Origin: Desulfobulbaceae bacterium
GTDB taxonomy: Bacteria; Desulfobacterota; Desulfobulbia; Desulfobulbales; SURF-16
Assembly: GCA_002868945.1 (NCBI GenBank)
Contig: PKTX01000055.1
Coordinates: 1 to 36,101, forward strand
Reading direction: 5' to 3'
Length of the DNA: 36,101 nt
Of the stretch, positions 12,910-32,392 are shown piece after piece (position 1 is the stretch's first letter; each line of letters opens with the position of its first letter). A model generated the notes under the pieces. That model worked only from the letters and a program-made list of their open reading frames with translations, did not search any database and was not told the DNA's origin. Position numbers and translations under genes: made by a program.

Positions 12910-14265
12910 CTATTCAATGTTGAGCTTCTTGATTTTCCGCCAGAGTGATACCCGGTCAATGCCCAGGGCCTTGGCGGCCGCAGTCTTGTTGTAAGCCGTT
13001 TCCTTGAGAATCCATTCAATATAGGATTTTTCCACCTCCTCAATGCTGGCATATTTATCCGTGCTCTTGCGGAAGGTCTGCAGGCCCATGTTGCGGAGAT
13101 CGTCGGGGATATCGGCCAGCCCGAGGCTGGTGTCGTTGCTCAGGGCGACGCCGCGCTCAATGATGTTTTCCAGCTCACGGACATTACCGGGAAAGTCATA
13201 GCCCTGCAGGGTCTCAATCACCTCGGCGCTGGCCTCGGCCACCTTTTTACCCATGGCGCTGTTGTATTTGTCCAGAAAGAACTGGACCAGGAGGGGAATG
13301 TCATCCTTGCGTTCCGACAGGGGCGGGATTTTCAGGGAGACCACGTTGATGCGGAAGTAGAGATCCCGCCGGAAGTTGCCGGCATCGACCTCGTCCTTGA
13401 GGTCGCGATTGGTGGCGGCGACAAAGCGCACATTGACCTTGATCGGGCTGGTGTCGCCGATCCGCATGATCTCCTTTTCCTGCAGGACCCGGAGGAACTT
13501 GACCTGCATGGAGGGCGTCATTTCGGTGATTTCATCGAGGAACAGGGTGCTGCCGTCGGCAATCTCCACCAGTCCTTTCTTGTCCTCGTCCGCCCCGGTA
13601 AAGGCCCCCTTGCGATGGCCGAAGAGTTCATTGGTCAAGAGTTCTTCGTTAAAGGCACCGCAGTTAATTGACAGCATTTGCCGGCCATGGCGCGGGCTGC
13701 GGCTGTGGATCAGTTTGGCCAAAAGCTCCTTGCCGGTGCCCGACTCGCCGCTGATGACGACATTGGTATCAGTGGCGGCAATCTGGTCGGCCATTTCCAG
13801 CAGACTGCGCATCTGCCGGTTATGGGTGATAAGCCGGGGCTGTTCCCTCTGCTGGAGCACCTGTTTCTGAAGAACCTCCACCTCCTCCTTGAGCAGAACC
13901 TTTTCCACGGCCTCGCGCACCACCTTGCGCACCTCGGCAAGCTTGAAAGGCTTGGTCAGGTAGTGGTAGGCGCCGCTCTTCAAGGCCTCAATGGCGGAAT
14001 CAATCGATGAGAAACCGGTGATCATGATCACCTCTGTCTTGGGATAGAGTGATTTGACCCGGCGCAGCACCTGCATACCGTCTATCTGCGGCATCTTCAG
14101 GTCGGTGAGGACCAGGGCAAAGGCCTGCCGGTCCAGACAGGAGAGGGCCTGCTTGCCGCTGCTTGCCGCTGTGACACGGTAGCCCTCCTTGCGGAGAACG
14201 AGGCTGAGGTTTCTTAAGGCCACCTCTTCGTCGTCAATGACCAGGATTTCAACGTCAGACATCAA
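12910..14265 (-). CDS. Sigma-54-dependent response regulator (NtrC family)
   Basis: 451 aa. Receiver domain (4-120) with phosphoacceptor D55 in VLTDLKMPQ, the switch Thr region (MITGF) and KPF at 106-107. AAA+ domain (about 145-385) with Walker A GESGTGKE (173-180) and the sigma-54 contact loop GAFTGA (220-225). A Fis-type HTH at the C-terminus (AAAKALGIDRVSLWRKIKKL). The gene overlaps its sensor kinase by 4 nt. The divergent promoter region carries a -24/-12 sigma-54 promoter and two dyads, so this protein is the obvious candidate activator of the UspA-LCIB-Ehr cluster and perhaps of itself. The signal sensed is unknown. Confidence 0.92.
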   Translation of the reverse strand: MMSDVEILVIDDEEVALRNLSLVLRKEGYRVTAASSGKQALSCLDRQAFALVLTDLKMPQIDGMQVLRRVKSLYPKTEVIMITGFSSIDSAIEALKSGAYHYLTKPFKLAEVRKVVREAVEKVLLKEEVEVLQKQVLQQREQPRLITHNRQMRSLLEMADQIAATDTNVVISGESGTGKELLAKLIHSRSPRHGRQMLSINCGAFNEELLTNELFGHRKGAFTGADEDKKGLVEIADGSTLFLDEITEMTPSMQVKFLRVLQEKEIMRIGDTSPIKVNVRFVAATNRDLKDEVDAGNFRRDLYFRINVVSLKIPPLSERKDDIPLLVQFFLDKYNSAMGKKVAEASAEVIETLQGYDFPGNVRELENIIERGVALSNDTSLGLADIPDDLRNMGLQTFRKSTDKYASIEEVEKSYIEWILKETAYNKTAAAKALGIDRVSLWRKIKKLNIE

Positions 14266-15659
14266 GATTTCTCCTTGCCCGGCAGGTTAATGATAAAGGC
14301 GGCGCCGGCCTGACGCTGCAGATCAATGTGGATGGTGCCGCCGTGCTGGCTCACTATTTCATGGACGATAAAGAGACCGAGGCCGGAACCCTGCCCGGTA
14401 TCCTTGGTGGTAAAGAAGGGGTCGAAAATTTTGTCCTTGAGTTGCACCGGAATGCCCGGCCCGTCATCGGCAATGACTATTTTTATGCCGCCCTGTTTCT
14501 GCCAGGCCTTGATCTGGATAATCCCCTTGCCGGCCAGGGCGTCAATGCTGTTTTTCAGGAGATTCAAAATGGCCTGCTGGATTTTCTGCTTGTCGACAAA
14601 GACGGAGAGCTCCTCCCCCACGGCCAGACGGATCTCGACGCCCCTGGGGATCTGGCCCTTGAGCAGCAGGACAATTTCCTGGAGCAGGGCGCGCAAGGGA
14701 TAGTGTCGGCGCTGAAAGTTTTCATGACGGGCCAGGGAGAGCAGGGTCTGGACAATGGAGATGGAGCGCTGCGTTTCCAGGTGGATCTGGTCGAGTAACT
14801 GGTGGGCCAGGGGGGTGTTGGCCGGGCCGATTTCTTCATCAAGCAGTTCGGCGGAGCTGGAGATGTTGGAGAGGGGGTTGTTGAGCTCATGGGCGACACC
14901 GGCCAACATGGTGCCCAGCGAGGCCAGCTTCTCCGACTTGACCAGCTGTTGCTGGCGTTTCTTGAGCTCGCGACTCATGCGATTAAAGGCGGAGATCAGA
15001 CTGTTTATCTCATGGTTTGAACTGGTAAAGGGCGCCTCGACAAAGTTGCCGGTGGCAATGAGGGCCGCATGCCTTTCAAGCTTCTTGAGGGAGGAGACAA
15101 TGCCCCGGCCCAGCAGGGCGGCTGCCGCGCTGAACAGGACGATGAGCAGGGGCAGGGTCAGCAGCAGGGTGTTGCTGATCAGGCGAATGAGACGCTGGAT
15201 GGCCCGGCGCTCCATGACCACCAGATCCTCGGTGAGCATGATCAGTTCGTTGCCCTGTTCACGAATAAGGGCGGCCAGTTCGCGGGAAAGCTCGCTATGG
15301 CCCAGGCGGGCAAAGGTGGCGCCGTAGTCCTGCAGGGCGCTGCGCACCGTGTTGATATCCTGCTGGGAACTCAATCTGACAAAGAGCTCCTCGTTGTCGG
15401 CCAGCTGCCCGGTGAGGGCGTCCAGGTACATTTCCCCCTGTTGCAGCGCCTTCGGGTCGTTGTAGAGCAGAAAGTTTTTCTCCATGCGCCGCACCTCCAG
15501 GGTGTTTGCCAGGAAGGTGTCCACGGTCTCGATATTGTGAAGTTTGCCCTCGATGCGGCTGACAATCCAGTAGGTAATGGTGGAGATCCCCACCATAAAG
15601 GCGAGCAGGAGATAGAACCAGAACATGATTTTGCTGCGAATACCGCCGGGCTGTTGCAT
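14262..15659 (-). CDS. HAMP sensor histidine kinase
   Basis: 465 aa inner-membrane kinase. TM1 about 11-33, a helical periplasmic sensor of about 130 residues (34-163), TM2 about 164-186, HAMP about 187-238, then HisKA with H257 in VAHELNNPLSN and a C-terminal ATPase domain with the DGPGIP, FFTTKDTGQGSGLGL boxes. The GVAHELNNPLSN H-box is typical of NtrB-like partners of NtrC regulators, matching the overlapping downstream gene. The sensor part is all-helical, like a four-helix bundle, and no ligand-binding residue can be named. Confidence 0.9.
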   Translation of the reverse strand: MQQPGGIRSKIMFWFYLLLAFMVGISTITYWIVSRIEGKLHNIETVDTFLANTLEVRRMEKNFLLYNDPKALQQGEMYLDALTGQLADNEELFVRLSSQQDINTVRSALQDYGATFARLGHSELSRELAALIREQGNELIMLTEDLVVMERRAIQRLIRLISNTLLLTLPLLIVLFSAAAALLGRGIVSSLKKLERHAALIATGNFVEAPFTSSNHEINSLISAFNRMSRELKKRQQQLVKSEKLASLGTMLAGVAHELNNPLSNISSSAELLDEEIGPANTPLAHQLLDQIHLETQRSISIVQTLLSLARHENFQRRHYPLRALLQEIVLLLKGQIPRGVEIRLAVGEELSVFVDKQKIQQAILNLLKNSIDALAGKGIIQIKAWQKQGGIKIVIADDGPGIPVQLKDKIFDPFFTTKDTGQGSGLGLFIVHEIVSQHGGTIHIDLQRQAGAAFIINLPGKEKS

Positions 15660-15727
15660 TTTTTTTCACCGAAAAAGGGCTGCCGGTAGAGGGGGCCGGC
15701 CAGGATAAGAACCATCGTACACCCTTA

Positions 15728-15744
15728 TGTTGCATAACGCAACA
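15728..15744. promoter_or_regulatory. Upstream dyad 1 (putative activator site)
   Basis: TGTTGC, ATAAC, GCAACA: perfect 6-bp arms with a 5-nt spacer. The same arms recur at 15814. Its centre lies about 187 bp upstream of the predicted start site of the sigma-54 promoter at 15898 and about 75 bp upstream of the kinase gene, so it could serve both directions. NtrC-type activators bind such paired dyads at -100 to -200. Confidence 0.6.
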
Positions 15745-15813
15745 GCATGTTCGGTAATGAAACGCGCTTGAACTGTATGTTTTCCGGTGGAAAATTTGGT
15801 ATGCCATGGTTTG

Positions 15814-15831
15814 TGTTGCAAATACGCAACA
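15814..15831. promoter_or_regulatory. Upstream dyad 2 (putative activator site)
   Basis: TGTTGC, AAATAC, GCAACA: the same arms as dyad 1 with a 6-nt spacer. The two centres are about 86 bp apart, close to eight helical turns, and this one is near -100 to the predicted transcription start. That is the normal geometry for enhancer sites of sigma-54 activators. Confidence 0.6.
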
Positions 15832-15896
15832 TGGCCGGAAGGACCTCTTCGGAGGTAACTTGTTGAACTTACTAGTATAAAAATTTTTCGGCGCTC

Positions 15897-15912
15897 CGGC
15901 ACGGGAAATGCT
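15897..15912 (+). promoter_or_regulatory. Sigma-54 (-24/-12) promoter
   Basis: CGGCACGGGAAATGCT contains the invariant GG (15898-15899) and GC (15910-15911) exactly 10 nt apart and the CACG that usually follows the GG. Transcription would start near 15923, about 63 nt before the GTG of the UspA-like gene. No minus-strand GG-N10-GC was found in this gap. The neighbouring NtrC-type regulator and the two dyads support the call. The remaining bases of the 326-nt gap show no gene. Confidence 0.7.
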
Positions 15913-15985
15913 GATTGAGGGCGCAGCCATGTGATGAGCATGGATCCGGCAATTTTTCTTTTCAAATGGATCGACAGGGGCATGT

Positions 15986-16405
15986 GTGCGCAGGAAAAAA
16001 GTTGGCAACAAGAAGGTACTCCTGATCACCAACTCCTCTGACCTGGGCGAGGATGTTCTGCGGCACGGCATCAATCTCAGCAAGCGGATGGATGCCGGCC
16101 TTGAGGTTCTCCACCTGGTCACGGCCCCGCAGGCGAAACAGGCCGCCGAGCATTTCCAGGCCCTGGTCGCGGCAATGGAGCCGGCCGAGCCCCTTCCCTA
16201 CAGTCAGTTTGTCGGACAGGGTGAATTTGTCGGCGAGGCCCTTGACTACGCCCGAAACAAACGGAACCTGCTCTGCGTTATTCTCTATCCGGACAGTGAC
16301 GGCGGCCGGGAAAGGCAGGGCAAGGGCCAGAGAAGATTCAAGGAAGTTATGCAAATGTTGAACTGTCCGGTGGTGGTTTACAGCGGCAGTCCAGTCTATC
16401 TGTGA
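15986..16405 (+). CDS. UspA-like small protein
   Basis: 139 aa, GTG start with AGGGG 5 nt before it. The beginning (KKVLLITNSSDLGEDVLRHGINLSKRMDAGLEVLHLVT) has the alternating strand-helix pattern of the universal stress protein fold, and the end (NCPVVVYSG) resembles the final strand of that fold. The ATP-binding G-2x-G-9x-G(S/T) motif of UspA is not evident, so nucleotide binding is doubtful. It is the first gene after the sigma-54 promoter and likely heads the transcript that includes the LCIB-type gene. A signalling or chaperone role toward the complex is possible but unproven. Confidence 0.65.
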   Translation: MRRKKVGNKKVLLITNSSDLGEDVLRHGINLSKRMDAGLEVLHLVTAPQAKQAAEHFQALVAAMEPAEPLPYSQFVGQGEFVGEALDYARNKRNLLCVILYPDSDGGRERQGKGQRRFKEVMQMLNCPVVVYSGSPVYL

Positions 16406-16429
16406 GATAATTTCAGTAAGAGGATGAAC

Positions 16430-16672
16430 GTGAAAGTACTTATCGGCATTACCCAGGATTTAGAGACGGCAAAGAGCGATTTGACCCATAAGTTCAACAG
16501 CTTGGGAAACACCACCGAGGTGGGCCCCTTCAAGTCCAGGGAGGAGGCGGAGAACTGGAAGACCTTTATGATGAAGAGACGCCAGAACTATGAAGAGATC
16601 GCCTCGCAGGCAGCGCCGGCCGAGGATGCCCTCTGGTTTGGTTTCACCGTGGAAAGCCCGGTTCTTCATTAA
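16430..16672 (+). CDS. Small hypothetical protein
   Basis: 80 aa from GTG 16430 (MKVLIGITQDLE). I prefer this start to ATG 16424 because AAGAGG at 16418-16423 abuts the ATG with no spacing but is 6 nt from the GTG. No signal peptide, no membrane segment and no cysteine. The protein has the rhythm of a small alpha/beta protein, with GPFKSREEAENWKTFMM resembling SPOR-like or small cytosolic regulators. No family is recognised. It sits 24 nt after the UspA-like gene and 19 nt before the LCIB-type gene, so it is almost certainly in the same operon. Confidence 0.7.
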   Translation: MKVLIGITQDLETAKSDLTHKFNSLGNTTEVGPFKSREEAENWKTFMMKRRQNYEEIASQAAPAEDALWFGFTVESPVLH

Positions 16673-16691: not shown

Positions 16692-17891
16692 ATGTGGCGC
16701 ACCAGACCAATGCCTCATACATACTTTAAACCAAGTATTATCCGCAAACTGGCGCCCTTTAAGGTGGATGGCCTGGCCATTCCCTATGCCGAGTTTGTCC
16801 CCAAGCTCTACAACCTCTGCATGACTCTGGGGTTTCGCAAGGGCTTGATTATGCCGTCCCGAGCCTTTTGCTCGGACGAAAATCAGGGCTGGCCCATCAT
16901 TCTGCTCACCAAGCATTTCGGCACCTTTCCCTTCAATCATGGGCGGGTGGGCGGTATTGTCGCCATTGATCGGCATGGGCCCCACGCCCATCACGGCGAG
17001 GACTCGGTGATCGTGCAGGCCAGTCATGTGGGCTATGATCCCATCAGCGGCGTCTACGGCAAGTGTACCCGTCCCAAGATGGAGGGTACCTGCATCTCCG
17101 AGTCGTGCGGCAAGATAACCCACGTTATCACCCCCTACCTGGAGCAGTATCACTTTGCCCGGGAGAGGATCTTTCTGCATCGGCACGAGAACGGCACCCA
17201 TCTGATCACGGTCAAGAACTCCTTTATTGATTTTGACTCGCATCCGGTGAAAAACGGCCTGGTCCTGAACCTGGAAAGTATTGTCAAGATCAATGAGAAC
17301 GGCAAGATTCTGCCGGTGACCGCCATCAGCACCAGCCAGACCTATGAGGTGTGTGACGAATTTCGGCGGCGCATTGACGAGAGCGGCTATACCTGGAAGA
17401 CAGGGGAGGGAGAAGGCATCGGCACATATCTCACCGATGATCTTTTCTACTTTCGTGAAGATTTCCATGAGACGGATGAGTCGATCCTGCTGGAGCGCAA
17501 TCTCATTGAATTCATGCCCACCATTGTCACCTCCCGCAATCCGCCGTTGCGGGCGGCCAAGATCAATATCCAGCTGGAGTTTGCCCGTACGGTGGAGTCG
17601 ATTCGGCGCGGCGCCGAGTATGACAACAAGAATCTGCTCTATGTGGCGGGGCTGAATGTCGATCTCTCCGAGTTTGAGGGCCACCCGGCCACCACCTACT
17701 TTGTGCCCTGGGCCGCCCATATCCAGCTCAAGGACGGCACGCCGGTGGAGTACACCCACCCCCTGGAGCAGGAACGCCTCTATGCCTTGCTCATGGAGCA
17801 GAACAGCCTCAATCCCGAGCAGGCGGACCTCAAGGAAGAGATCGGCCGTATGCTGGCCGCACCCCGTTTTGATATCCGGTCGCCCAAATGA
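16692..17891 (+). CDS. LCIB-type (beta-like) carbonic anhydrase family protein
   Basis: 399 aa from ATG 16692 (GGGAG 8 nt upstream). The frame is open further back but that part overlaps the preceding gene. The segment 45-145 has the pattern I associate with the LCIB/LCIC family of beta-type carbonic anhydrases: FCSDEN (C60, D62), FPFNHGRVGGIVA, then QASHVGYDP (H112) and CISESCGK (C139, with C134 nearby), a plausible Cys-His-Cys zinc site with a catalytic Asp. No signal peptide or membrane segment, so it is cytoplasmic or membrane-peripheral. The C-terminal 250 residues are extra to the core and not recognised. It lies between the sigma-54-driven small genes and the Hyf/Ehr genes, which suggests work with that complex. 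Function is inferred, not shown. Confidence 0.65.
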   Translation: MWRTRPMPHTYFKPSIIRKLAPFKVDGLAIPYAEFVPKLYNLCMTLGFRKGLIMPSRAFCSDENQGWPIILLTKHFGTFPFNHGRVGGIVAIDRHGPHAHHGEDSVIVQASHVGYDPISGVYGKCTRPKMEGTCISESCGKITHVITPYLEQYHFARERIFLHRHENGTHLITVKNSFIDFDSHPVKNGLVLNLESIVKINENGKILPVTAISTSQTYEVCDEFRRRIDESGYTWKTGEGEGIGTYLTDDLFYFREDFHETDESILLERNLIEFMPTIVTSRNPPLRAAKINIQLEFARTVESIRRGAEYDNKNLLYVAGLNVDLSEFEGHPATTYFVPWAAHIQLKDGTPVEYTHPLEQERLYALLMEQNSLNPEQADLKEEIGRMLAAPRFDIRSPK

Positions 17892-18151: not shown

Positions 18152-20110
18152 ATGGACACCCTGTTTGTGTCGTTTGTGGTAATTCTGGCGGGAGGAGTGA
18201 TGGCACTCCTGCTGGCCCGCCGGTTTAACCTGATGAAGCTGGTAACGGTTGCCGTTATGTCGTGTGGTTGCGGGATAGGCCTGGTAAAGAGCCTCTCCTT
18301 GCTCCTGAGTCAGGCGCCCACCGCAGAAAAGAGCTGGGCCTGGCTCCATTTTTTTGAGCTCACCTTTAAGGTGGACAGTATAGCCCTCTTTTTTCTGATC
18401 CCTCTGTTTGCCGTGCCGCCCCTGGCGCTGTTCTACAGCCTGCAGTACATGGCGGATCAGCAAAAGAGGGTGCGGGTGGCGGTTAACTACTTCTTCTTTG
18501 CGATACTGGTGGCCTCCATGGCCCTGGTGGTCATGGCGGCCAATATGATTACCTTTGCCCTGGCCTGGGAGATCATGTCTCTCTCCTCCTTTTTTCTGGT
18601 GGTCTTTGACTATCAGGTCAAGGCCAACCGCCAGGCCGGCTATCTCTACTTCATCTTTGCCCAGGCCGGCGCCATGTTTCTCTTTGCCGCTTTTGCCCTG
18701 CTTTACAGCCACACGGCAAGCTTTGATTTTGCCGCCTTCGCTTCGGTCCCGGAAAAGGCCAAACTGCTCATCTTCCTGATCGCCTTTATCGGTTTCGGCT
18801 CCAAGGCGGGTATTTTCCCCCTGCATATCTGGTTGCCCAAGGCCCATCCGGCCGCCCCCAGTCATATTTCGGCCATCATGTCCGGTGTGATGATCAAGAT
18901 GGGTATCTATGGAATTTTCCGTATCTATCTACTGCTGGACGCCGCCACCCCCATTATCGGTCAGGTGGTCCTGGTTACCGGTATGATCACCGGCGTCCTC
19001 GGCGTGGTCTACGCCCTGGCCAAGCAGGATATCAAACAGCTCCTGGCTTACAGTAGTGTGGAAAATATCGGCATTATTCTCATTGGTCTGGGTATCGGCA
19101 TGGTGGGTGTCTCGGAGCAGAATCAGGCCATGGCCTTTTTCGGTTTTGCCGGGGCCATGCTGCACCTCTTCAACCACTCCATCTTCAAGTCCCTGCTCTT
19201 TATGGGGGCCGGCGCCGTTCTGCACCAGGCCAAGACGAAGAATATCGACCAGCTCGGCGGTCTGATGAAACGGATGCCCATTACCGGTCGCACCTTTCTG
19301 GCCGGTTCCGTGGCTATTTCCGGCCTGCCGCCCTTCTGCGGTTTTATCGGTGAATTCCTCATCTATTACGGGGCCTTTCATGGCATCAACAACCAGCGTT
19401 TCTCCTTTATCCTGGCCATCCTTGCCATTGTCTCCCTGGCTGTCATCGGCGGCCTGGCCACGGCCTGTTTTACCAAGGTGGTGGGCCTGGCCTTCCTGGG
19501 TGAACCGCGCACCGAACAGGCTGCCCGGGCCACCGAAGCGGCCTGGGGCATGGGCCTGGTGATGATCGTCATGGCCGCGGCCTGCCTGGTGATGGGGGTG
19601 GTGCCGGAGCCCTTTATCCGCCTGGCCTTTGCCGGGATCAGGGATGTCGGCTTTACGGCCGGCTATGACACGCAGGCCTTTTTGGCTGTGGTCCGCCAGC
19701 TCTCCCAGGCCATTCTCATTTTCCTGGCCCTTCTGGCGCTGGTCAGCCTGCTGCGCAAGGTGCTTTACCGCGGCAAGGAGATCGGCAGTGGCTCCACCTG
19801 GGGCTGCGGCTTTACCCAACCCACGGTGCGCATGCAGTACACAGGCACATCATATGCCGCTGAGATTATAGATTTTTATCGGCCATTTGTGCCGGTCAGA
19901 CGCCTCTACAGCGGCATCAGCCGGATCTTTCCCGGCAAGACCACCTGGGAGACCGGTGTCGACGATGTGGCGGAGATCAACTACATGCAGCGGCTGATCA
20001 AGCCGCTCCTGCAGTTCTTAAACAGTCTGCGCTGGATTCAGCACGGCAACATTCAGCTCTATATCGCCTATATCATTGTCGCCATTATCGTCCTGCTCCT
20101 CTTTTTGTAG
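18152..20110 (+). CDS. hyfB: Hyf/Ehr-type complex antiporter-like subunit (HyfB/NuoL-like)
   Basis: 652 aa from ATG 18152, chosen over an upstream in-frame start because AAGGAG precedes it. About 14-16 membrane helices. The proton-channel module is typical of NuoL/M/N: E140 in AWEIMSL (TM5), K218 in GSKAGIFPLHIWLP (TM7), then K230 and K249. A long C-terminal extension follows helix 14 (TWGCGFTQPTVRMQYTGTSY), a feature of HyfB/HycC-type subunits, and ends with one more helix. It moves ions across the inner membrane as part of the complex encoded by the next five genes. It is the first gene of the hyfB-C-E-F-G-I-like run. Confidence 0.88.
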   Translation: MDTLFVSFVVILAGGVMALLLARRFNLMKLVTVAVMSCGCGIGLVKSLSLLLSQAPTAEKSWAWLHFFELTFKVDSIALFFLIPLFAVPPLALFYSLQYMADQQKRVRVAVNYFFFAILVASMALVVMAANMITFALAWEIMSLSSFFLVVFDYQVKANRQAGYLYFIFAQAGAMFLFAAFALLYSHTASFDFAAFASVPEKAKLLIFLIAFIGFGSKAGIFPLHIWLPKAHPAAPSHISAIMSGVMIKMGIYGIFRIYLLLDAATPIIGQVVLVTGMITGVLGVVYALAKQDIKQLLAYSSVENIGIILIGLGIGMVGVSEQNQAMAFFGFAGAMLHLFNHSIFKSLLFMGAGAVLHQAKTKNIDQLGGLMKRMPITGRTFLAGSVAISGLPPFCGFIGEFLIYYGAFHGINNQRFSFILAILAIVSLAVIGGLATACFTKVVGLAFLGEPRTEQAARATEAAWGMGLVMIVMAAACLVMGVVPEPFIRLAFAGIRDVGFTAGYDTQAFLAVVRQLSQAILIFLALLALVSLLRKVLYRGKEIGSGSTWGCGFTQPTVRMQYTGTSYAAEIIDFYRPFVPVRRLYSGISRIFPGKTTWETGVDDVAEINYMQRLIKPLLQFLNSLRWIQHGNIQLYIAYIIVAIIVLLLFL

Positions 20111-20197
20111 GGCGCAGAGGTTACGTCACCCATTGTCATTGCCGCCGCCGGGTCCTGGGCCCGGTTGGGCGGCAGCAACATAAACTCGAGGTCTGAG

Positions 20198-21115
20198 ATG
20201 GAATCCATACTCTCATTGTGCTTTGCAATTCTGATCGCCCCCCTTCTGCCCGCCGTTATTCAGAAGGTAAAGGCCTTTTTTGCCGGGAAACAGGGGCCGC
20301 CCCTGCTGATAAACTACTACACCATGATCAAGCTCTTCCGGAAGGGCTCGGTCTACAGTACCAGTACAAGCTTTGTCTTTCGAATGGGACCGGTGGTCGG
20401 CTGCGTCACCAGCCTTATGATGCTGCTCTTTTTTCCCCTGGCCGGCATCAAGCCGCTTTTCTCCTTTCACGGTGATGTGCTCATCCTCTTCTATCTCATG
20501 GGGCTCGGCCGCTTTTTCACCATTCTGGCGGCCTTGGACACGGCCTCGCCCTTTGAGGGCATGGGGGCGGCCCGCGAGGCCTTTTTCTCCACCCTGGCCG
20601 AGGCCACTGTCTTCGGTATTCTCATTCTCTTTTTCCGCATCACCGGCAGCCTCAGCTTTGCGGAATTTTTCTCGGGCAGGCATGTCATCTCTCTGAGCAG
20701 CGAGCATGGCGCCCTCCTTCTTCTGGTTATTGTCGCCCTCTACATCGTCATGCTCACGGAAAACTCCCGGGTGCCGGTGGATGATCCCGCCACCCATCTT
20801 GAGCTGACCATGATCCACGAGGTGATGATTCTGGACCACAGCGGCCCGGATCTGGCTCTCATCGAGCTGGGGGCCTGGTTCAAGCTCCTCTTTTATTCGG
20901 CCTTTCTCTCCATGCTCATTGAGCCCTTTCACCTGGAGAGCGCCCTGCTCAACAGCCTGCTCTTTTATGCCGTGGTCTGTTTTATCTACATCACCATCGG
21001 CATGGTGGAGTCCATTACCGCCAGATATAAGATGAACATGGTACCCAAGTTCGTCCTGACACCCTTTGCTCTGGTCTTTTTTGTCACCATTCTCACCATG
21101 GAGCTGGTCAAATGA
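20198..21115 (+). CDS. hyfC: Hyf/Ehr-type complex subunit HyfC (NuoH-like)
   Basis: 305 aa from ATG 20198, supported by GAGG, although the frame is open to 20165. Eight predicted membrane helices. The NuoH signature regions are present: LDTASPFEGMGAAREAFFS and the loop ENSRVPVDDPATHLELTM with EVMILDHSG, which contact the peripheral arm and couple redox chemistry to ion movement. It overlaps hyfE by 4 nt (ATGA). In complex I this subunit forms the quinone chamber floor. In group-4 hydrogenases the equivalent subunit has the coupling role without quinone. Confidence 0.9.
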   Translation: MESILSLCFAILIAPLLPAVIQKVKAFFAGKQGPPLLINYYTMIKLFRKGSVYSTSTSFVFRMGPVVGCVTSLMMLLFFPLAGIKPLFSFHGDVLILFYLMGLGRFFTILAALDTASPFEGMGAAREAFFSTLAEATVFGILILFFRITGSLSFAEFFSGRHVISLSSEHGALLLLVIVALYIVMLTENSRVPVDDPATHLELTMIHEVMILDHSGPDLALIELGAWFKLLFYSAFLSMLIEPFHLESALLNSLLFYAVVCFIYITIGMVESITARYKMNMVPKFVLTPFALVFFVTILTMELVK

Positions 21116-21765
21116 TTGTTCTTTCTGATTTTTTGCTCTCTCTGACCCTGTTGTCGGTCCTTCTTTCCCTGGCCTCCAATCGGCTCATGGCCCTGGTCAA
21201 GATCATGGCCTTTCAGGGGATTGTCGTCTCGCTTATTCCTCTGGTGCTGGAGCAGCATCAGGACCTGGCCATGGGCTCCATTCTCATGCTGCAGGTCATG
21301 ATTCTTATCAAGGGCTTCCTGATCCCCGGCTTTATTTACATGGCCCTGACAAAGATCAAGATCAAGCGCGAGATCGAACCCATCATCGGTTATCACGCCT
21401 CGGTGTTTGCCGGTCTCTTCTTCATCCTGCTCTCCGCCTTTATTACGGATCGGCTTGATATCAGCCTGCCAGGCGGCCAGGTTCTGTTGATGATCACCGC
21501 CATCACCACCCTGGCGGCAGGGCTTTTTCTGCTCATGAGCCGCCGCAAGGCCATTACCCAGGTCATCGGTTACCTGATGATGGAAAACGGCATTTATCTG
21601 TTCGGCACGGCCCTGGCCAAGGAGACCCATACCCAATATCTGGTGGAGTTCGGCGTCCTGCTCGATCTCCTGGTGGGCATCATGGTCATGGGCATCGTCC
21701 TTCACAACATCAACAGCACCTTTGATGATGTGGATACCGCCCTGCTCGGCCAGTTAAAGGATTGA
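21112..21765 (+). CDS. hyfE: Hyf/Ehr-type complex subunit HyfE (NuoK-like)
   Basis: 217 aa, about six membrane helices. The C-terminal half carries a NuoK-like helix with a buried glutamate in LMMENGIYLFGTAL, the expected acidic residue of the NuoK lateral channel. The N-terminal half is extra, as in HyfE. It starts inside the hyfC stop codon, implying translational coupling. A hyfD-like gene, found between hyfC and hyfE in E. coli hyf, is absent here. A 108-nt gap with weak hairpins (about 21830 ATGGA/TCCAT) separates it from hyfF. Confidence 0.88.
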   Translation: MIVLSDFLLSLTLLSVLLSLASNRLMALVKIMAFQGIVVSLIPLVLEQHQDLAMGSILMLQVMILIKGFLIPGFIYMALTKIKIKREIEPIIGYHASVFAGLFFILLSAFITDRLDISLPGGQVLLMITAITTLAAGLFLLMSRRKAITQVIGYLMMENGIYLFGTALAKETHTQYLVEFGVLLDLLVGIMVMGIVLHNINSTFDDVDTALLGQLKD

Positions 21766-21873: not shown

Positions 21874-23301
21874 ATGTTAGAGTTCACCTGCCTCATCCCA
21901 CTGTTTACCGGGATTATCGCCATGTTTATGCCGGCCAGGCTGGGTCGGATAATCCTGCTGGTAACGGCTGTTCTCCACCTGCAGCTCACTGTCTTGGGCT
22001 GGTTCGGCAAGGTCACCCCGTCTTTGCCCGGCTATTTTGCGGCGCCGCCGGACGGCCTGCTGGTGCTGCTTGTCACCTCCTTTATCTTTCTGTTTATCTC
22101 CGTCTATGCCGTCTTTTATATGCGGGAGACGGAGATGGCCAGTGAGCCGCACTATATCGGCGCCACCCTCTTCTTTCTGGCCTCCATGTCCATGGTGGCC
22201 CTGGCCGATCACCTGGTGGTCCTGTGGATCGCCATTGAGGCCACCACCCTGATGAGCGCGCCGCTTATCTTCCTGACCCGTTCCAAGTCAGCCCTGGAGG
22301 CCACCTGGAAATATGTGCTCATCTGTTCGGTGGGTATTGCCCTGGCCCTGCTCGGCTGTTTTTTCATTGTCATGGCCATGGCCAGCAATCATCTGGATGT
22401 GGGCATCACCTTCTCCTCCCTGGGCCAGGTGGCCGAGCAGCTTGACCCGGTCTGGCTCAAGGCCGGCTTTATCTTTCTTGTCATCGGCTATGGCACCAAA
22501 ATGGGCCTGGCCCCCATGCATACCTGGCTGCCGGACGCCCACAGCGAGGCGCCGAGCCCGGCCTCGGCCCTGCTGTCCGGGGCGCTGCTCAACTGCGCCT
22601 TTCTGGGAATCTATCGCAGCCATCAACTGCTCTACCAGGCCGGTCTGGGCGACTTTTCCAGCCGGATCCTCATCGGCTTTGGGCTGCTTTCCATGCTTGT
22701 CGCGGCAATCTTCATGTATAACCAGACCGGTTATAAGCGGCTGCTGGCCTACTCCAGTATCGAGAATATGGGTGTTATCGCCTTTGGGATCGGCATCGGC
22801 GGCCTGGCCACCTATGGTGCCATGCTGCACCTGATCCACCACTCGCTGATCAAGTCGGCCCTCTTTCTCTCCTCGGGGAATATCCTGCTGGGCTACGGCA
22901 GTAAATTGATCAACAAAACCGGCAACATGGCCAAGCTCTTGCCCAAGACATTCGCCCTCTTCATGGCCGGTTTTGCCGGTATCTCCGGCTTCCCGCCCTT
23001 TGGCATCTTTGTCAGTGAGCTGCTTATTATCATCGGCGCCTTTCAGCAGGGCAATACCATCAGCGTCACCATCTTTATCTTTGCCCTGATTCTGGTCTTT
23101 GCCGGGGCCGCGCGTCTGGTGATGCGCATGTGTTTCGGCAGAAACGACGAAGAGATTCTGGTGCCGGAAAGCTATGGCCGGCTGCTGCCGCCTCTGGGGC
23201 TTTTGCTCTCTTCAGTGCTTCTCTGTGTCTGGTTGCCTGACACTCTCTATGAAAAAATTCTTTCGGCCATTGCCACTATCGGAGGTGGGATACATGGATA
23301 A
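21874..23301 (+). CDS. hyfF: Hyf/Ehr-type complex antiporter-like subunit HyfF (NuoN/M-like)
   Basis: 475 aa, about 14 membrane helices. The channel residues are visible: E122 in WIAIEATTL (TM5), K209 in GTKMGLAPMHTWLPDAHSEAPSP (TM7/8). It has no C-terminal extension, unlike hyfB. AAGGTAAGG lies before the start. The stop overlaps hyfG by 8 nt. Together hyfB and hyfF give two ion-pumping units. Confidence 0.9.
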   Translation: MLEFTCLIPLFTGIIAMFMPARLGRIILLVTAVLHLQLTVLGWFGKVTPSLPGYFAAPPDGLLVLLVTSFIFLFISVYAVFYMRETEMASEPHYIGATLFFLASMSMVALADHLVVLWIAIEATTLMSAPLIFLTRSKSALEATWKYVLICSVGIALALLGCFFIVMAMASNHLDVGITFSSLGQVAEQLDPVWLKAGFIFLVIGYGTKMGLAPMHTWLPDAHSEAPSPASALLSGALLNCAFLGIYRSHQLLYQAGLGDFSSRILIGFGLLSMLVAAIFMYNQTGYKRLLAYSSIENMGVIAFGIGIGGLATYGAMLHLIHHSLIKSALFLSSGNILLGYGSKLINKTGNMAKLLPKTFALFMAGFAGISGFPPFGIFVSELLIIIGAFQQGNTISVTIFIFALILVFAGAARLVMRMCFGRNDEEILVPESYGRLLPPLGLLLSSVLLCVWLPDTLYEKILSAIATIGGGIHG

Positions 23302-24799
23302 GCTGCTTCATATACGTAACGGCGAAAAGGTCAACCGGGCCGAGATCCCCTGCCTGCCCTTCAGCCAATTCCGTCAAACCCTGCTCGATTTTGCCGAGGA
23401 GGGCGGTCAGGTTGTCCAGTTCTTTGCTTACCAGGAGAGCGACGCCGTCAAGCTGCTGGCCGTGCTGCGCAGCGACAGGCTCTTTGTCACGGGCTGCGAG
23501 GCGCCGCAGAGCTTTGACTCCCTCACGGCGGTCAGTGAAAAATTTCATATGTTCGAGCGGGAAATAGGCGAGCAATACGGCCTCAAGGCCGAGGGCCATC
23601 CCTGGCTGAAGATGGTGCGCTATCACAAGAATTACAGCGGGACGGCCGATGTCTTCGGCAATGACTATAGTCAGGATATCCCCGGCAACTATCCCTACTT
23701 CACGGTGGAGGGTGAAACGGTCCACGAGGTGGCGGTGGGACCTGTCCATGCCGGTATCATCGAACCGGGCCATTTCCGTTTTCAGTGCTGCGGCGAACGG
23801 GTTTTTCACCTGGAGATCCAGCTCGGCTACCAGCATCGCGGCGTGGAAAAATTGTTGCAATCCGTCCCCCTGAAGCGTCTGCCCATCATTGCCGAGACCA
23901 TTGCCGGTGACACCACCATCGGCCACGGCCTCTGCCAGGCCCAGGCCTTGGAGGCCCTGGCTGACCTGCAGGTGGACGACGGCGCCAGGGTGGTGCGCAC
24001 CATTGCCCTGGAGCTGGAAAGGATCGCCAACCATATCGGTGATCTCGGCGCCCTGAGCCTGGATGTGGCCTTTAATCCGCCGGCCGCCTATTTCGGCCGG
24101 ATCAGGGGGGAATATCTCAATCTCAGCCAGATTCTGGGCGGCAGCCGTTTCGGCCGCGGCCTGGTGAGGCCGGGAGGGGTCACCCATGTCATGGGCGAGG
24201 AGCAACGGCGGTTGCTCAGTGACAAGCTGGCGGAATTGACGCCGGAGGTGGAGCACGTCAACGAGCTTATCTTCGGTTCTCCCAGTGTCCAGGCCCGTTT
24301 TGACAACACCGGCACGGTACGTCGGCAAGATGCCGAAAAGATCGGCCTGGTGGGCTATGCCGGCCGGGCCAGCGGTCTTGCCTATGACGCCCGGGTCAGC
24401 TTTCCCAGCGAGTGCTATGCCGAACTGCCGGCCAACCGTAATCTAAAGACCGAAGGCGACGTCTGTTCCCGGGCCACGGTGCGCCGGGAGGAGATCATGC
24501 ACTCCACCGGCTTGATCAATCTGCTGCTGGCCCGCAGCCAAGAGGCCAAGAGCTATACGCCGGAGGAGCTCAACCTGGCGCCGCAATCGCTGGTGGTCAC
24601 CCTTAATGAGGGCTGGCGCGGCGAGGTATCGCACTGCATCCTCACCGATGACCAGGGCAAGATTATGCGCTACAAGGTCAAGGATCCCTCCTTCCACAAC
24701 TGGACAGGTCTGGCCCTGGCCCTGCGTGATGAGGGAATCTCCGATTTCCCTCTCTGCAATAAGAGCTTCAATCTCTCCTATTGCGGATTTGACCTATAA
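23294..24799 (+). CDS. hyfG: Hyf/Ehr large subunit (NuoC-NuoD fusion) lacking [NiFe] ligands
   Basis: 501 aa from ATG 23294 (GGAGGT upstream, 8-nt overlap with hyfF). A NuoC-like 30-kDa domain (about 1-125) is fused to a NuoD/hydrogenase large-subunit domain (about 140-501, with VGPVHAGIIEPGHFRF and LEIQLGYQHRGVEKLL). Group-4 hydrogenases have CxxC in an ERxCGIC motif and a C-terminal CxxC. Here the first site reads ETIAGDTTIGH, with A204 and T207 in the cysteine positions. The C-terminus reads NLSYCGFDL, with S495 and G498 in them, and only stray cysteines at 488 and 497. Hydrogenase activity is therefore not expected. This is the hallmark of Ehr (hydrogenase-related) complexes, whose substrate is unknown. 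Confidence 0.88.
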   Translation: MDKLLHIRNGEKVNRAEIPCLPFSQFRQTLLDFAEEGGQVVQFFAYQESDAVKLLAVLRSDRLFVTGCEAPQSFDSLTAVSEKFHMFEREIGEQYGLKAEGHPWLKMVRYHKNYSGTADVFGNDYSQDIPGNYPYFTVEGETVHEVAVGPVHAGIIEPGHFRFQCCGERVFHLEIQLGYQHRGVEKLLQSVPLKRLPIIAETIAGDTTIGHGLCQAQALEALADLQVDDGARVVRTIALELERIANHIGDLGALSLDVAFNPPAAYFGRIRGEYLNLSQILGGSRFGRGLVRPGGVTHVMGEEQRRLLSDKLAELTPEVEHVNELIFGSPSVQARFDNTGTVRRQDAEKIGLVGYAGRASGLAYDARVSFPSECYAELPANRNLKTEGDVCSRATVRREEIMHSTGLINLLLARSQEAKSYTPEELNLAPQSLVVTLNEGWRGEVSHCILTDDQGKIMRYKVKDPSFHNWTGLALALRDEGISDFPLCNKSFNLSYCGFDL

Positions 24800-24839: not shown

Positions 24840-25583
24840 ATGTTAAAAGTATTGAAAAACAGGTTGGAGCAGGGGCATCGCACCTCGCGATATCCCAAGG
24901 AGCAGATTCATCTCTACAAGAGATTCCGCGGCCTGCCCAAGGTCAACAGCAGCTGCCGGGCCGAGCTGGTGCAGCAGTGCGCCGCCGCCTGCCCGCAGGA
25001 TGCCATCATGGCGGATGCCTGCCGGATCGATCTGGGCCGCTGCGTGTTCTGCGGCCTCTGTGAGACCCTGTCCGCCGGCGAATTTGTCACCTTCAGCCAG
25101 AATTTCGAGATGGGGACGGCGCAGCGCAATGATCTTTTTACCAGTGGTGATCTGCCTGCCCTGGCCGACCACGCCCAAAAGCACTTCAAGAAACTCTTTG
25201 GTCGCTCCCTGCAGTTACGCCAGATTTCAGCCGCCGGTTGCAATGCCTGTGAGGCGGATACCAATGTGCTCAACACGCCCTTTTTTGATCTGTCGCGTTT
25301 CGGTATCCAGTTCGTGGCCTCGCCGCGCCATGCCGACGGCATCCATGTGACCGGACCGATTTCCGAAAATATGCGGGCCGCCACCCTGGAAACCTTTGCA
25401 GCGGTGCCCAGCCCCAAGGTGGTTATTGCCAGCGGCGCCTGCGCCATCTCGGGCGGTCCCTTTCACGGCAGTGAGGATATTGTCGGCGATCTCAACAGTA
25501 TCATTCCGGTGGATCTCTACATCCCCGGCTGCCCGCCGCACCCCCTCACCACCCTGCATGCCCTGCTCAACTATTTCAAGTAA
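24840..25583 (+). CDS. hyfI: Hyf/Ehr small subunit (NuoB-like) with ferredoxin-like N-terminus
   Basis: 247 aa. The C-terminal half is NuoB-like with all four cluster ligands: C134 and C137 (AAGCNACEAD), C201 (ASGACAISGG) and C231 (IPGCPPHPL), so the proximal [4Fe-4S] cluster should be present. The N-terminal 80 residues look like a ferredoxin. One complete half remains, C68, C71, C74 with C51-Pro, but the first CxxCxxC is replaced by scattered C39, C47, C61, so probably one cluster is left. HyfH-type and HyfI-type proteins thus seem merged. It is the electron-handling partner of the ligand-less large subunit. Confidence 0.87.
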   Translation: MLKVLKNRLEQGHRTSRYPKEQIHLYKRFRGLPKVNSSCRAELVQQCAAACPQDAIMADACRIDLGRCVFCGLCETLSAGEFVTFSQNFEMGTAQRNDLFTSGDLPALADHAQKHFKKLFGRSLQLRQISAAGCNACEADTNVLNTPFFDLSRFGIQFVASPRHADGIHVTGPISENMRAATLETFAAVPSPKVVIASGACAISGGPFHGSEDIVGDLNSIIPVDLYIPGCPPHPLTTLHALLNYFK

Positions 25584-25592
25584 GCCGTAACC

Positions 25593-26141
25593 ATGAGTTG
25601 TCTGGTGCAATGTCGGAAGGATCTGGGCCGCCTCCTCCATCTGGCCCGGCAGGTGGAGCTGCGGCCCGCGCCGCTGGTCAGCGAGCATGCCGTCATGGCG
25701 GAGATCGCGGCCTCCTTTGCCGGGAATGGTGGCAGCACTCTTCTCTATGTGGTGGGGGAGGATGGTGTTCTCAAGGGCGCTATCAGCCTGGCAGACATCC
25801 TGCGCTACCTCTTTTTCTATCAGCATGATCCCTACTCGCCGCCGGCAACCCTGCGGCAACTGGCCCGGACTGAAAGCGCTGCAGGCTTCATGCGCCGGGC
25901 CCTGAGCGTCAGGATGACCGAAGAGGTGGTGGATGTTCTTGAGAAAATGACGGCAGCAGCCCTTACTGAATGCGCGGTGGTGGATGACAACGACCGGCTC
26001 CTGGCCCGGCTGAGCATGACCGACCTGGTCCACTATTACCGGCAGGTGCAGAATCGGTGCAGCGATGCGCCCGAAGAGTGGTTGCCGCCGGGAGTCAGCG
26101 GCGCAGCTCCAACTGCACCGGACAGTGGTCGGAACCCATAA
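25593..26141 (+). CDS. CBS-domain-pair protein
   Basis: 182 aa, cytoplasmic. Two CBS motifs are visible, about 20-70 (HAVMAEIAASF...LLYVVGEDGVLKGAISLADIL) and about 105-150 (VVDVLEKMTAAALTECAVVDDNDRLLARLSMTDLV). Between them is a longer linker as in CBS pairs that bind adenine nucleotides. It starts 10 nt after the hyfI-like stop, so it is probably the last gene of the Ehr operon and may report energy charge to the complex or to the carbonic anhydrase system. Its 3' end overlaps the convergent nth-xth gene by 47 nt. The Shine-Dalgarno is weak. Confidence 0.75.
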   Translation: MSCLVQCRKDLGRLLHLARQVELRPAPLVSEHAVMAEIAASFAGNGGSTLLYVVGEDGVLKGAISLADILRYLFFYQHDPYSPPATLRQLARTESAAGFMRRALSVRMTEEVVDVLEKMTAAALTECAVVDDNDRLLARLSMTDLVHYYRQVQNRCSDAPEEWLPPGVSGAAPTAPDSGRNP

Positions 26142-27540
26142 TGTCGCTTAAAATGGCGGCGCCCTTGAGCCGCTGCCTGCTGCCGGCATCAACAATGAAG
26201 TAATCGATCCGCCAGCCGATATTCTTGCGCCGGGCGTTAAAGCGGTAGCTCCACCAGGTGTATTGGCCCGGCTCTTGATTGAAGAGACGGAAGGTGTCGA
26301 CATAGCCGGAGGCCAGAAAGGTGTCGAGCCAGGCCCGTTCCTCGGCGCTGAATCCTGGATTCTTTTCGTTGGCCTTGGGGTTGGCCAGGTCGATCTCCTT
26401 ATGGGCCACATTGAGATCGCCGCACAGCACCACGGTTTTTTGGGCGGTCAGTTCATCGACAAAGTCGTGCAGGGCCCTGTTAAAGGCGAGCTTGTAGTCA
26501 AGGCGGCTCAGGCCGGGCTGGGCATTGTGGAAATAGGCATTGACCAGGAAAAAGGAGTCAAATTCAAGGGTAAGCAGGCGTCCTTCGCTGTCAAACTCGT
26601 CGCGGCCCAGACCGGTGATGACCCGGATCGGTTTGAGCCGCGTATAGACGGCCAGGCCCGAGTAGCCCTTTTTCCGGGCAGCGGCGAAATAGGCCTCGTA
26701 GCCGTTCATCCCGGTAAGCTCTGCCGAGAGTTGTTCGGGGTGGGCCTTGGTCTCCTGGATGGCCATGATGTCAGGCCCCAGCCCCTGAACAATATCGACA
26801 AAGCCTTTTTTTGCCGCGGCCCGGATGCCGTTGACATTCCAGGAGATGAGGCGCAGAGTCGGGCGCTCCTTGTGGCGTGGCCGCGGCAGGCGGCGCGGCG
26901 TCACCCCCAGCTTGGGGCAATAGGCGGCCAGTACACATCGGTCACAGTGGGGGCCCACCGGTTTGCAGGTCCCCTGGCCAAAGGCGACCAGGATGGAGTT
27001 CACCGTCAACCAATATTTTTGCGGCAGTTTGCGACGCAGGGCCATTTCCGTCTGCTCCGGGGTTGTGGTCTCCACATAGCCCCAGATATTCATGATGCGG
27101 TGGACATGGGTATCCACGCAGATGGCCGGCTTGCCAAAGGCCACGGCCAGGACAAGATTGGCGGTCTTGCGGCCGACGCCGGGCAGGCTGAGAAGATCGT
27201 CAAGCTCGGTGGGTACCTTGCCGCCGAAGGTGTCCAGGGCGGCCGGCAGGGCTGCCAGATAGCGGGCCTTATTCTTAAAAAAGCCCACCGGATAGATCAG
27301 TGTGCGGATCTCCTCCTGGCTGAGGGCGGCAAGCGCCGTTGCCTCCGGCGCCTTTGCAAAGAGGCGGCTGCAGGCCTTGGCCGTGGTTTCATCCTTGGTG
27401 CGGGCCGACAGAATAGTGGCCACCAGCACCTTGAAGGGATCCTTGCTCTGCACGGCTATGAGGTCCACCACCGGCACCTGGTAGGAGGCCACCTCCTGCT
27501 TGAGGAGAGCGAGAAAGAGGTCGATATTTATGTCTGGCAT
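26095..27540 (-). CDS. nth/xth: Fused endonuclease III - exonuclease III
   Basis: 481 aa in one uninterrupted frame. Residues 1-212 are an endonuclease III: HhH LPGVGRKTA (119-127) with the catalytic K125, catalytic D143 in CVDTHVHRI, and the [4Fe-4S] ligands C192, C199, C202, C208 with exact C-x6-C-x2-C-x5-C spacing. Residues about 228-481 are an exonuclease III/AP endonuclease: ISWNVNGIRA, catalytic E263 in IQETK, GDLNVAH, WRIDYFIV and the terminal SDHCPV. A DNA glycosylase/AP lyase and an AP endonuclease would thus act from one polypeptide in base excision repair. The linker (about 212-228) is short and basic. A fused bifunctional enzyme is unusual. It lies convergent to the CBS gene. Confidence 0.9.
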   Translation of the reverse strand: MPDINIDLFLALLKQEVASYQVPVVDLIAVQSKDPFKVLVATILSARTKDETTAKACSRLFAKAPEATALAALSQEEIRTLIYPVGFFKNKARYLAALPAALDTFGGKVPTELDDLLSLPGVGRKTANLVLAVAFGKPAICVDTHVHRIMNIWGYVETTTPEQTEMALRRKLPQKYWLTVNSILVAFGQGTCKPVGPHCDRCVLAAYCPKLGVTPRRLPRPRHKERPTLRLISWNVNGIRAAAKKGFVDIVQGLGPDIMAIQETKAHPEQLSAELTGMNGYEAYFAAARKKGYSGLAVYTRLKPIRVITGLGRDEFDSEGRLLTLEFDSFFLVNAYFHNAQPGLSRLDYKLAFNRALHDFVDELTAQKTVVLCGDLNVAHKEIDLANPKANEKNPGFSAEERAWLDTFLASGYVDTFRLFNQEPGQYTWWSYRFNARRKNIGWRIDYFIVDAGSRQRLKGAAILSDIMGSDHCPVQLELRR

Positions 27541-27892: not shown

Positions 27893-28489
27893 ATGGGAGT
27901 AGTTTCTTCAGTAATGCCCAATAGTGACCAAGCGCTTGCCATGCTTATGGAGGGTAACAGGCGTTTTGTCAATACCCAGGCAACCCATCCCCACCAAGAC
28001 CCTGAGTATCGTATTACCCTCGGCGGCGGGCAGATGCCCTTTGCCGCTATTCTGGCTTGTGCTGATTCACGGGTGCCACCCGAGGTGGTTTTTGACGAAG
28101 GTCTCGGTGATCTTTTCGTGGTGCGGGTCGCCGGCAATATTATCAATGATCAGCTCCTGGGTAGCCTGGAGTATGCCGCCGCCCACCTGAACACCCCCCT
28201 GATAATGGTCATGGGGCATACACGGTGTGGCGCCATTGGTGCCGTGGCCAGCGGCGCCGAGCTTGAGGGCCATATCGCCTCCCTGGCTCCGGCCATTCAG
28301 CCGGCCGTGGACAAGGTTCGGGGCCGGGAAGGAGATCTTACCGACAATGCCGCCAAGGAGGTGGCCCGCATGACCGCTGATGAGCTGCGCAATTCAGAGC
28401 CGGTGCTGGCCGGTCTGGTCAAGGCGGGCAAACTGAAGGTTGTGCCGGCCTTTTATGACCTTGAAACCGGTGTTGTGGAGCTCTTGTAG
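27893..28489 (+). CDS. Beta-carbonic anhydrase
   Basis: 198 aa, the usual length. Zinc ligands and catalytic residues are all present: C56, D58 and R60 in CADSR, and H109 and C112 in GHTRCG. It hydrates CO2 to bicarbonate in the cytoplasm, with no signal peptide. It precedes a SulP-type transporter by 314 nt, a pairing common for bicarbonate transport (BicA-like or fused CA-SulP proteins). A strong-arm palindrome and a fair sigma-70 promoter lie upstream. AGTGAGGAAGT precedes the start. Confidence 0.95.
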   Translation: MGVVSSVMPNSDQALAMLMEGNRRFVNTQATHPHQDPEYRITLGGGQMPFAAILACADSRVPPEVVFDEGLGDLFVVRVAGNIINDQLLGSLEYAAAHLNTPLIMVMGHTRCGAIGAVASGAELEGHIASLAPAIQPAVDKVRGREGDLTDNAAKEVARMTADELRNSEPVLAGLVKAGKLKVVPAFYDLETGVVELL

Positions 28490-28803
28490 AAGGGCGTGGC
28501 TGACACGCTGCTGTTTACATTTATTTTGATCTAAAATCTCTGTCCGGGGATTTGACCCGCCACACCCTGCCGACCTGCGAGGTCCTTTCTGCAGAGTTGT
28601 CGGAGGTCAGAACCAGGCTGCCGCCTGCAAACCGTGCAACAACGCTGCAGGGGATAAAGCAGGGATTTGGATGCAACCGTGATGCCTGTTCAGAAGTGAG
28701 GGAGGATCTCTTTTTTGCAGAGATCAAAGATCGTTTCTGAGTGAGCATCACCCGACTTCCGCCCGGTCTTGTTCCGGGCATATTTATGATGAGGAAAGAA
28801 AAA
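28490..28803 (+). other. Leader gap between carbonic anhydrase and SulP gene
   Basis: 314 nt without a convincing gene. It holds small hairpins GACCT-GCG-AGGTC (about 28575-28587) and GATCTC-ttttttgca-GAGATC (28705-28725), the second about 80 nt before the SulP start. No clear -35/-10 pair was found, so the transporter is probably cotranscribed with the carbonic anhydrase or has its own weak promoter. Confidence 0.4.
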
Positions 28804-31519: not shown

Positions 31520-32392
31520 ATGAGTATTCGTGTGCAATTTACCTGTTGGGTGCTGCTGGTGAGTGTCCTTGCCATCGGCGCCCTGGGTTATGTGAGCTAT
31601 CAGTACAGTAAGGACGCCGCCCTGCAGGCAGCCTCTGATAAGGTCGCTATTCTGGGAAGTTACACGGATGCTGCCCTGCATTTTTCCCGCACCCAGGCCG
31701 TGCCCATGGTCAAGCACCTGGTGGGCGAGGAACGCTTTTATCCGGAAATCATGTCCGGTTTTGTCATGGCCCGTAATGTGGCCGACCGTTTCAAACAGAC
31801 CCAGCCCGGCTATACCATCAAAAATGCCACGGTGGACCCCCTGTGGCCGGAGAGCAAGGCCGATGATCAGGAGCTGAAGGTTATCTCCGAGCTCAAGCAT
31901 AGCAAGGCTGAAAAAACCACCGGTGTCATGAACAAGAAGGGCAAGGATTTCTACTATGAGGCCCGGGCCATGAAGGTGGGAGAAAAATGTTTGCGTTGTC
32001 ACGGCGACCCCAACGATGCCCCCAAGGACCAGATTATGATTTATGGCTCGGAAAACGGCTATAACTGGAAGGCCGGCGATGTGGTCAGTGCCATGTTCAT
32101 CTATGTACCGGTTTCCGATGCCCTGGCCGCTGCCAAGACCTCGGCCGTGAAACTGGTTGGCATGGGCACGGCCTGTATGGTCTTTGCCCTGCTGCTGGTC
32201 GCCCTTTTCTTCGGAATAAAGATTGTTACCCCCATTGAGACCCTGTCCAAGCGGACCGAGGAGATCAGTCTCGGCAAAAACCTGGATACGCCCATTACAG
32301 TCAAGCCGAATCGGGAAATTGGTGAACTGAGTCGAGCCATTGATCGTTTACGCCTCAGCATTGCCCGTCTGATCAATAAAAGGGGAAAGTAA
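31520..32392 (+). CDS. DUF3365/Tll0287-like haem sensor with HAMP
   Basis: 290 aa. TM1 about 8-30, an extracytoplasmic helical-plus-PAS-like region, a c-type haem site CLRCH (C157, C160, H161), TM2 about 211-235, then a HAMP domain (236-288). This arrangement is the DUF3365/Tll0287-like haem sensor. It ends right after HAMP, with no kinase, cyclase or methyl-accepting output domain, so it must act through a partner or is a truncated sensor. AAGGAGAG precedes the ATG. A TPR gene follows 206 nt downstream. Redox or gas sensing is suggested by the haem but not shown. Confidence 0.78.
   Translation: MSIRVQFTCWVLLVSVLAIGALGYVSYQYSKDAALQAASDKVAILGSYTDAALHFSRTQAVPMVKHLVGEERFYPEIMSGFVMARNVADRFKQTQPGYTIKNATVDPLWPESKADDQELKVISELKHSKAEKTTGVMNKKGKDFYYEARAMKVGEKCLRCHGDPNDAPKDQIMIYGSENGYNWKAGDVVSAMFIYVPVSDALAAAKTSAVKLVGMGTACMVFALLLVALFFGIKIVTPIETLSKRTEEISLGKNLDTPITVKPNREIGELSRAIDRLRLSIARLINKRGK

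Follow-up and report, generated by a model that had tools for sequence, protein, structure and literature searches.

An LCIB-type carbonic-anhydrase-like protein recurrently paired with a nickel-free Hyf/Ehr-type complex in sulfur-metabolising bacteria

Energy-coupled CO2 hydration is, to our knowledge, known from two systems, the cyanobacterial NDH-1MS complex and DAB, both of them found in autotrophs with RuBisCO-based fixation. The CupA protein of NDH-1MS is all-helical and has a His/Arg zinc site (PMC6981117), and DAB2 (DabA2-DabB2) consists of a beta-carbonic-anhydrase-like protein with a Cys/Asp/His/Cys site and a NuoL-type membrane subunit (PMC13144422). Ehr complexes are built from group-4-like subunits without Ni/Fe ligands together with antiporter-like subunits, and those described so far are associated with oxidoreductases, formate dehydrogenase among them (PMC6349859).

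The window analysed here is a stretch of 36,101 nucleotides of Desulfobulbaceae DNA (contig PKTX01000055.1) in which an LCIB-type protein is encoded next to an ion-pumping complex. This protein resembled LCIB, LCIC and PtLCIB (PF18599; PDB 5B5Y, 5K5W, 5B5X and 6KFS) in the aligned Cys-x-Asp-Glu, His and Cys positions and in a fold that extended over residues 18-375, and it shared the CSDE motif with PtLCIB4. It differed from that family in being 399 aa long instead of about 240, in having large insertions and a Pfam score below the cut-off, and in belonging to non-photosynthetic anaerobes, with its gene adjoining the complex. As in NDH-1MS and NDH-1MS' with CupA, a complex I-like machine without the NADH module has a genetic tie to a candidate zinc carbonic anhydrase; however, the CupA fold is unrelated to LCIB, the core of the window complex is Hyf/Ehr-like and no RuBisCO was found in the host genome. 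DAB2 likewise pairs a beta-carbonic-anhydrase-like protein with a NuoL-type subunit and has the same kind of Cys/Asp/His/Cys site, but DabA is about 830 aa long with two beta-carbonic-anhydrase-like domains and an Asp-Arg dyad, and DAB2 has a single membrane subunit. DabA was rejected as an identity for the window protein because its profile (PF10070) had no match anywhere in the host genome, and it was absent from all 243 genomes of the host's order. The window complex and the Ehr complexes have the subunit set and the missing Ni ligands in common; the described Ehr partners are oxidoreductases, whereas the partner here is a carbonic-anhydrase-like protein. A search of the open-access literature, on LCIB with Hyf/Ehr complexes and on LCIB in Desulfobulbaceae, turned up no earlier description of this pairing.

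A divergent LCIB relative with a predicted zinc site

The LCIB-like gene is a 399-codon open reading frame (positions 16692-17891, forward strand) with a Shine-Dalgarno-like ggag 8 nt upstream of the ATG. The exact start is uncertain because the majority of orthologues have their first residue where the window protein has M7, which gives an alternative start at 16710. The gene is present as a single copy in the host genome, and searches of plasmids and viral contigs found no relatives of its product.

The first-pass annotation had named the protein an LCIB-type carbonic anhydrase and had proposed an HMM search and a structure prediction as checks. The Pfam family LCIB_C_CA (PF18599) matched residues 29-147 over profile positions 1-120 with a significant E-value of 2.7e-4, but the score of 20.7 bits was below the curated cut-off of 25 bits; a close relative of the window protein scored 22.7 bits. 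NCBIfam held no family model for the protein, and a phmmer search of the PDB with the single sequence returned nothing at E 1. A profile of 28 relatives that were 63-85% identical to the window protein (6 of the 28 rows came from genome-search loci) matched PtLCIB4 chains and nothing else among the PDB sequences, and the match was weak (E 0.16) but placed CSDE on CSDE and His on His. With hhalign, the profile of the divergent family aligned at E 9.5e-6 to eight canonical bacterial LCIBs, proteins whose own PF18599 E-values are about 1e-50. The LCIB-type identity was thus borne out by kinship in three sequence methods and by the structural match described below, and qualified by the sub-threshold Pfam score. 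Judged from these alignments, the window protein is a divergent relative within the LCIB superfamily and no textbook member, since the Pfam match is significant yet below 25 bits.

The hhalign alignment placed C60, D62 and E63 on the C-R-D-E motif of the canonical LCIBs, H112 on their conserved His and C139 on the Cys of their ...CGAL motif. The codons for C60-S61-D62-E63, with the predicted first zinc ligand and catalytic Asp, are at 16869-16880 on the forward strand, followed on the same strand by those for the predicted ligands H112 (17025-17027) and C139 (17106-17108). C60, D62, H112 and C139 were invariant across the 28 relatives. Together with E63 they were also invariant in 41 of 41 non-degenerate members, down to 31% identity; these included locus L099 and locus L061, which is 31% identical and lies in another genomic context. 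These sequence alignments support the presence of the Cys-x-Asp-Glu/His/Cys zinc site of the LCIB family in the window protein, as predicted from the residues C60/D62, H112 and C139 in the first-pass annotation. The Arg beside the first Cys in the CRDE of canonical bacterial LCIBs is replaced by S61, and wild-type PtLCIB4 also has Ser at this position; a structure of a PtLCIB4 S47R mutant exists in the PDB. An Arg at the equivalent of S61 reportedly raises activity in this family. With S61 in place of the canonical Arg, the activity of the window protein could be low.

An AlphaFold2 model built on the alignment of the 28 relatives was weak, with a mean pLDDT of 61.7 and values below 50 in the zinc region (residues 58-101 and 123-148). 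The LCIB fold was nevertheless matched with it. A Foldseek search of 350,542 chains had entries of the LCIB family in its first seven places, and in VIA-align, with the same low-confidence model, the best six were LCIB/LCIC/PtLCIB4-type entries with Z-scores of 10.6-12.2 compared to 4.4 for the next; ranks 8-11 included three beta-carbonic anhydrase entries. The six LCIB structures aligned across model residues 18-375, and 197-221 of 221-248 residues were paired. This whole-length match suggests that the extra length consists mainly of insertions inside the LCIB-like fold plus a tail of about 30 residues, so that the earlier view of about 250 C-terminal residues outside the core fold was mostly wrong. 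A separate domain made up of the C-terminal 250 residues was rejected on the same VIA-align match, although hhalign with the C-terminal part alone gave a score inside the shuffled range, so that sequence by itself does not prove the match there.

The nickel-free Hyf/Ehr-type complex and its link to the LCIB-like gene

The complex genes are all on the forward strand. They begin with a hyfB-like antiporter subunit of the NuoL/DabB superfamily (18152-20110, start inferred; Proton_antipo_M, E 1e-57; NCBIfam hydrogenase 4 subunit B, 562 bits), followed by hyfC-like (NuoH; 20165-21115; Pfam NADHdh, E 4e-28), hyfE-like (21112-21765; NCBIfam hydrogenase 4 membrane subunit, E 1e-20) and hyfF-like antiporter genes (21874-23301; NCBIfam hydrogenase 4 subunit F, E 6e-99). 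Next come a hyfG-like (NuoCD) large subunit that lacks the Ni ligands (23285-24799; Complex1_49kDa, E 4e-32) and a fused NuoI-like/NuoB-like Fe-S subunit (24840-25583; Oxidored_q6, E 6e-25; hydrogenase-4 Fe-S subunit matches on the N-terminal half), in which one ferredoxin-type Cys motif is apparently broken. A CBS-domain protein is encoded 9 nt downstream of the complex genes (25593-26141; Pfam CBS, E 3e-11).

In 11 aligned large subunits, the window's included, the expected CxxC pairs of the hyfG-like protein were absent and just four scattered Cys were invariant. Apart from minor substitutions, the region of the Ni ligands read AETIAGDTTIGHG and the C-terminus read KSFNLSYCGFDL in 11 of 11. 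A group 4 [NiFe] hydrogenase, whose large subunit would hold Ni through four Cys of a CxxC pair, was rejected because these ligands are missing. The neighbour, which had been described as a respiratory-type complex, is complex I-like; it is a nickel-free Hyf/Ehr complex by its Pfam and NCBIfam subunits and its missing Ni ligands, and by predicted subunit set and lost ligands it fits the definition of an Ehr complex.

Across 26 loci in GTDB genomes and some 40 more from genome searches, most copies of the LCIB-like gene were directly upstream of a hyf-like operon, and in L034-L036 and L039 the gene was just downstream of it. In L069 two full-length LCIB-like genes stand in tandem before the hyf operon (13126-16219, reverse strand). 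Among 243 genomes of the host's order, 59 had a full LCIB-like gene and 6 had the degenerate form only. In the Hyf clade nearest to that of the window, 27 of 29 genomes had an LCIB-like gene (Fisher p 3e-17, kinship ignored). On the HyfG tree, adjacency to LCIB required six changes, of which at least three were forced by supported branches. In L067 and L068 the adjacency recurred with Hyf proteins that were only 37-47% identical and an LCIB-like protein close to that of the window. The association of LCIB with Hyf is conserved and repeated in Desulfobacterota. The first-pass annotation had considered an LCIB-type gene unusual beside a respiratory-type complex; the complex is there, but the pairing is no accident.

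A sizeable minority of LCIB-like loci had no hyf neighbour, and many related Hyf complexes had no LCIB-like gene. In several Hyf loci of the latter kind, SulP or DUF4170-like genes took its place (L160-L163, L165 and L167-L169); L160, L162 and L163 have tandem DUF4170-like small proteins right before hyfB. In the window itself, co-transcription of the LCIB-like gene and hyfB is uncertain because the gap between them is about 260 nt.

Neighbouring genes and inorganic carbon

The co-directional run that contains the LCIB-like gene starts with a small Usp-like protein (15986-16405, forward strand; Pfam Usp, E 7e-4, below cut-off), which had the same position in L024, L025, L070-L072, L118 and L124. 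It is followed by an 82-aa DUF4170-like protein (16424-16672, forward; Pfam DUF4170, E 0.009, below cut-off), homologues of which were found directly upstream of hyfB in many loci, LCIB-less ones included. A divergently oriented histidine kinase and sigma-54 response regulator pair (12910-15659, reverse; Pfam), a possible regulator, also adjoined the cluster in L070-L072, L118 and L124.

Downstream of the complex are a canonical beta-carbonic anhydrase (27893-28489, forward; Pfam Pro_CA, E 7e-38), with homologues 3' of the complex in L025, L118 and L124, and a SulP anion transporter with a STAS domain (28741-31017, forward; Sulfate_transp, E 3e-95; STAS, E 4e-14) that is a candidate bicarbonate transporter. 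A long, probably coiled-coil insert splits the permease-domain match of this SulP in two. BicA-like SulP proteins of group Ai are 700-900 aa long (PMC5840216), a range that includes the 758 aa of the window SulP, although length alone does not place it in that group. SulP homologues adjoined LCIB or hyf in many loci, and where hyf was absent SulP was often beside LCIB (L066, L121, L136 and L043). In these hosts, sulfate may be what the SulP proteins transport. In other Desulfobacterota, the LCIB-like genes of L061 (1854-4695) and L050 adjoin Na+/sulfate-type transporters of the DASS family. Two further genes in the window encode a Tll0287-like sensor domain plus HAMP (31520-32392, forward), close to the carbon cluster, and a 481-aa fusion of an HhH-GPD endonuclease III-like domain with an exonuclease III-like Exo_endo_phos domain (26095-27540, reverse).

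The host genome encodes acetyl-CoA synthase, and in the host's order LCIB co-occurred with this enzyme (56/59 genomes with the LCIB-like gene vs 125/184 others; p 1e-5, kinship ignored).

Possible functions of the pairing

We favour, with a probability of roughly 40%, the reading that the window protein is a zinc-dependent LCIB-type beta-carbonic anhydrase that interconverts CO2 and bicarbonate as the partner of an ion-translocating Hyf/Ehr complex without nickel. The analyses support the LCIB kinship, the aligned site, the missing Ni ligands and the repeated linkage to the complex and to SulP and beta-carbonic anhydrase genes; we infer zinc binding, CO2 hydration, contact with an antiporter-like subunit and the use of energy for one-way conversion. 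In the simplest model that fits all of these results, the zinc carbonic anhydrase would give or take protons at an antiporter-like subunit, for which HyfB is the candidate contact, and electron flow or an ion gradient would push the conversion of CO2 and HCO3- one way, a logic that has been reported for NDH-1MS (PMC6981117) and DAB2 (PMC13144422). For a host that has the acetyl-CoA pathway, a module of this kind would determine the intracellular pool of inorganic carbon. Either direction is conceivable, as hydration would trap carbon and dehydration would feed CO2-fixing enzymes.

A serious rival, quite possible if not likely, is that the protein is a soluble LCIB-type carbonic anhydrase that shares just its regulation with the complex and, uncoupled from energy, keeps CO2 and HCO3- in balance for carboxylases, formate dehydrogenase and CODH. 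Soluble carbonic anhydrases need no partner, and the loci where LCIB is beside SulP or alone, with no hyf, speak for this explanation. The conventional beta-carbonic anhydrase in the cluster counts both ways: its presence there favours this reading, but it would also make a second free enzyme redundant. Against a free enzyme speaks, in addition, that adjacency to hyf is repeated in distant Hyf lineages.

It is distinctly less probable that the protein serves the complex as a subunit with a structural or regulatory task, for instance as a CO2/HCO3- sensor or an assembly part, with a carbonic anhydrase activity that is secondary or already lost. This possibility is raised by 11 sequences (L100-L110), mostly from one genus, that have lost all of C60, D62, H112 and C139 and have kept the C-terminal core. 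In the tree their clade branches from inside the zinc-site family, and most of them have kept the position immediately upstream of hyfB, from which they are separated by 12-150 nt and often by only 12-40 nt; two genomes (G469 and G473) carry a zinc-less copy and a full LCIB-like copy elsewhere. Such a clade may have turned into a structural subunit or may have drifted to some other function. However, the site is complete in the window protein and in every member outside this clade, a pattern that implies selection for metal chemistry. Least probable by far is a different small-molecule substrate, for instance COS or CS2. Hydrolases of both with a beta-carbonic anhydrase fold are known among relatives in sulfur bacteria, and the hosts here include sulfur-metabolising Desulfobulbales and cable bacteria; against this reading, the closest fold is LCIB and not that of the COS/CS2 hydrolases, and the neighbours are a beta-carbonic anhydrase and SulP.

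The reading of an energy-coupled partner can be extended to a broader proposal, which is more doubtful and which we put forward as speculation. The pairing would then be a third, independently evolved energy-coupled carbonic anhydrase, with an LCIB-type enzyme on a nickel-free Hyf/Ehr complex driving one-way CO2/bicarbonate conversion in RuBisCO-less bacteria of the acetyl-CoA pathway, and in one lineage the metal site would have been lost while the subunit stayed as a structural part.

If the partner reading is true, sulfate reducers and cable bacteria would extend active handling of inorganic carbon to the acetyl-CoA route. Nickel-free Hyf complexes that are now without a role would gain one, and the LCIB known from algae would be tied to a membrane machine. 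The recurring pairing of LCIB with the complex in sulfur-metabolising bacteria suggests an unrecognised, energy-driven interconversion of CO2 and bicarbonate that operates without RuBisCO.
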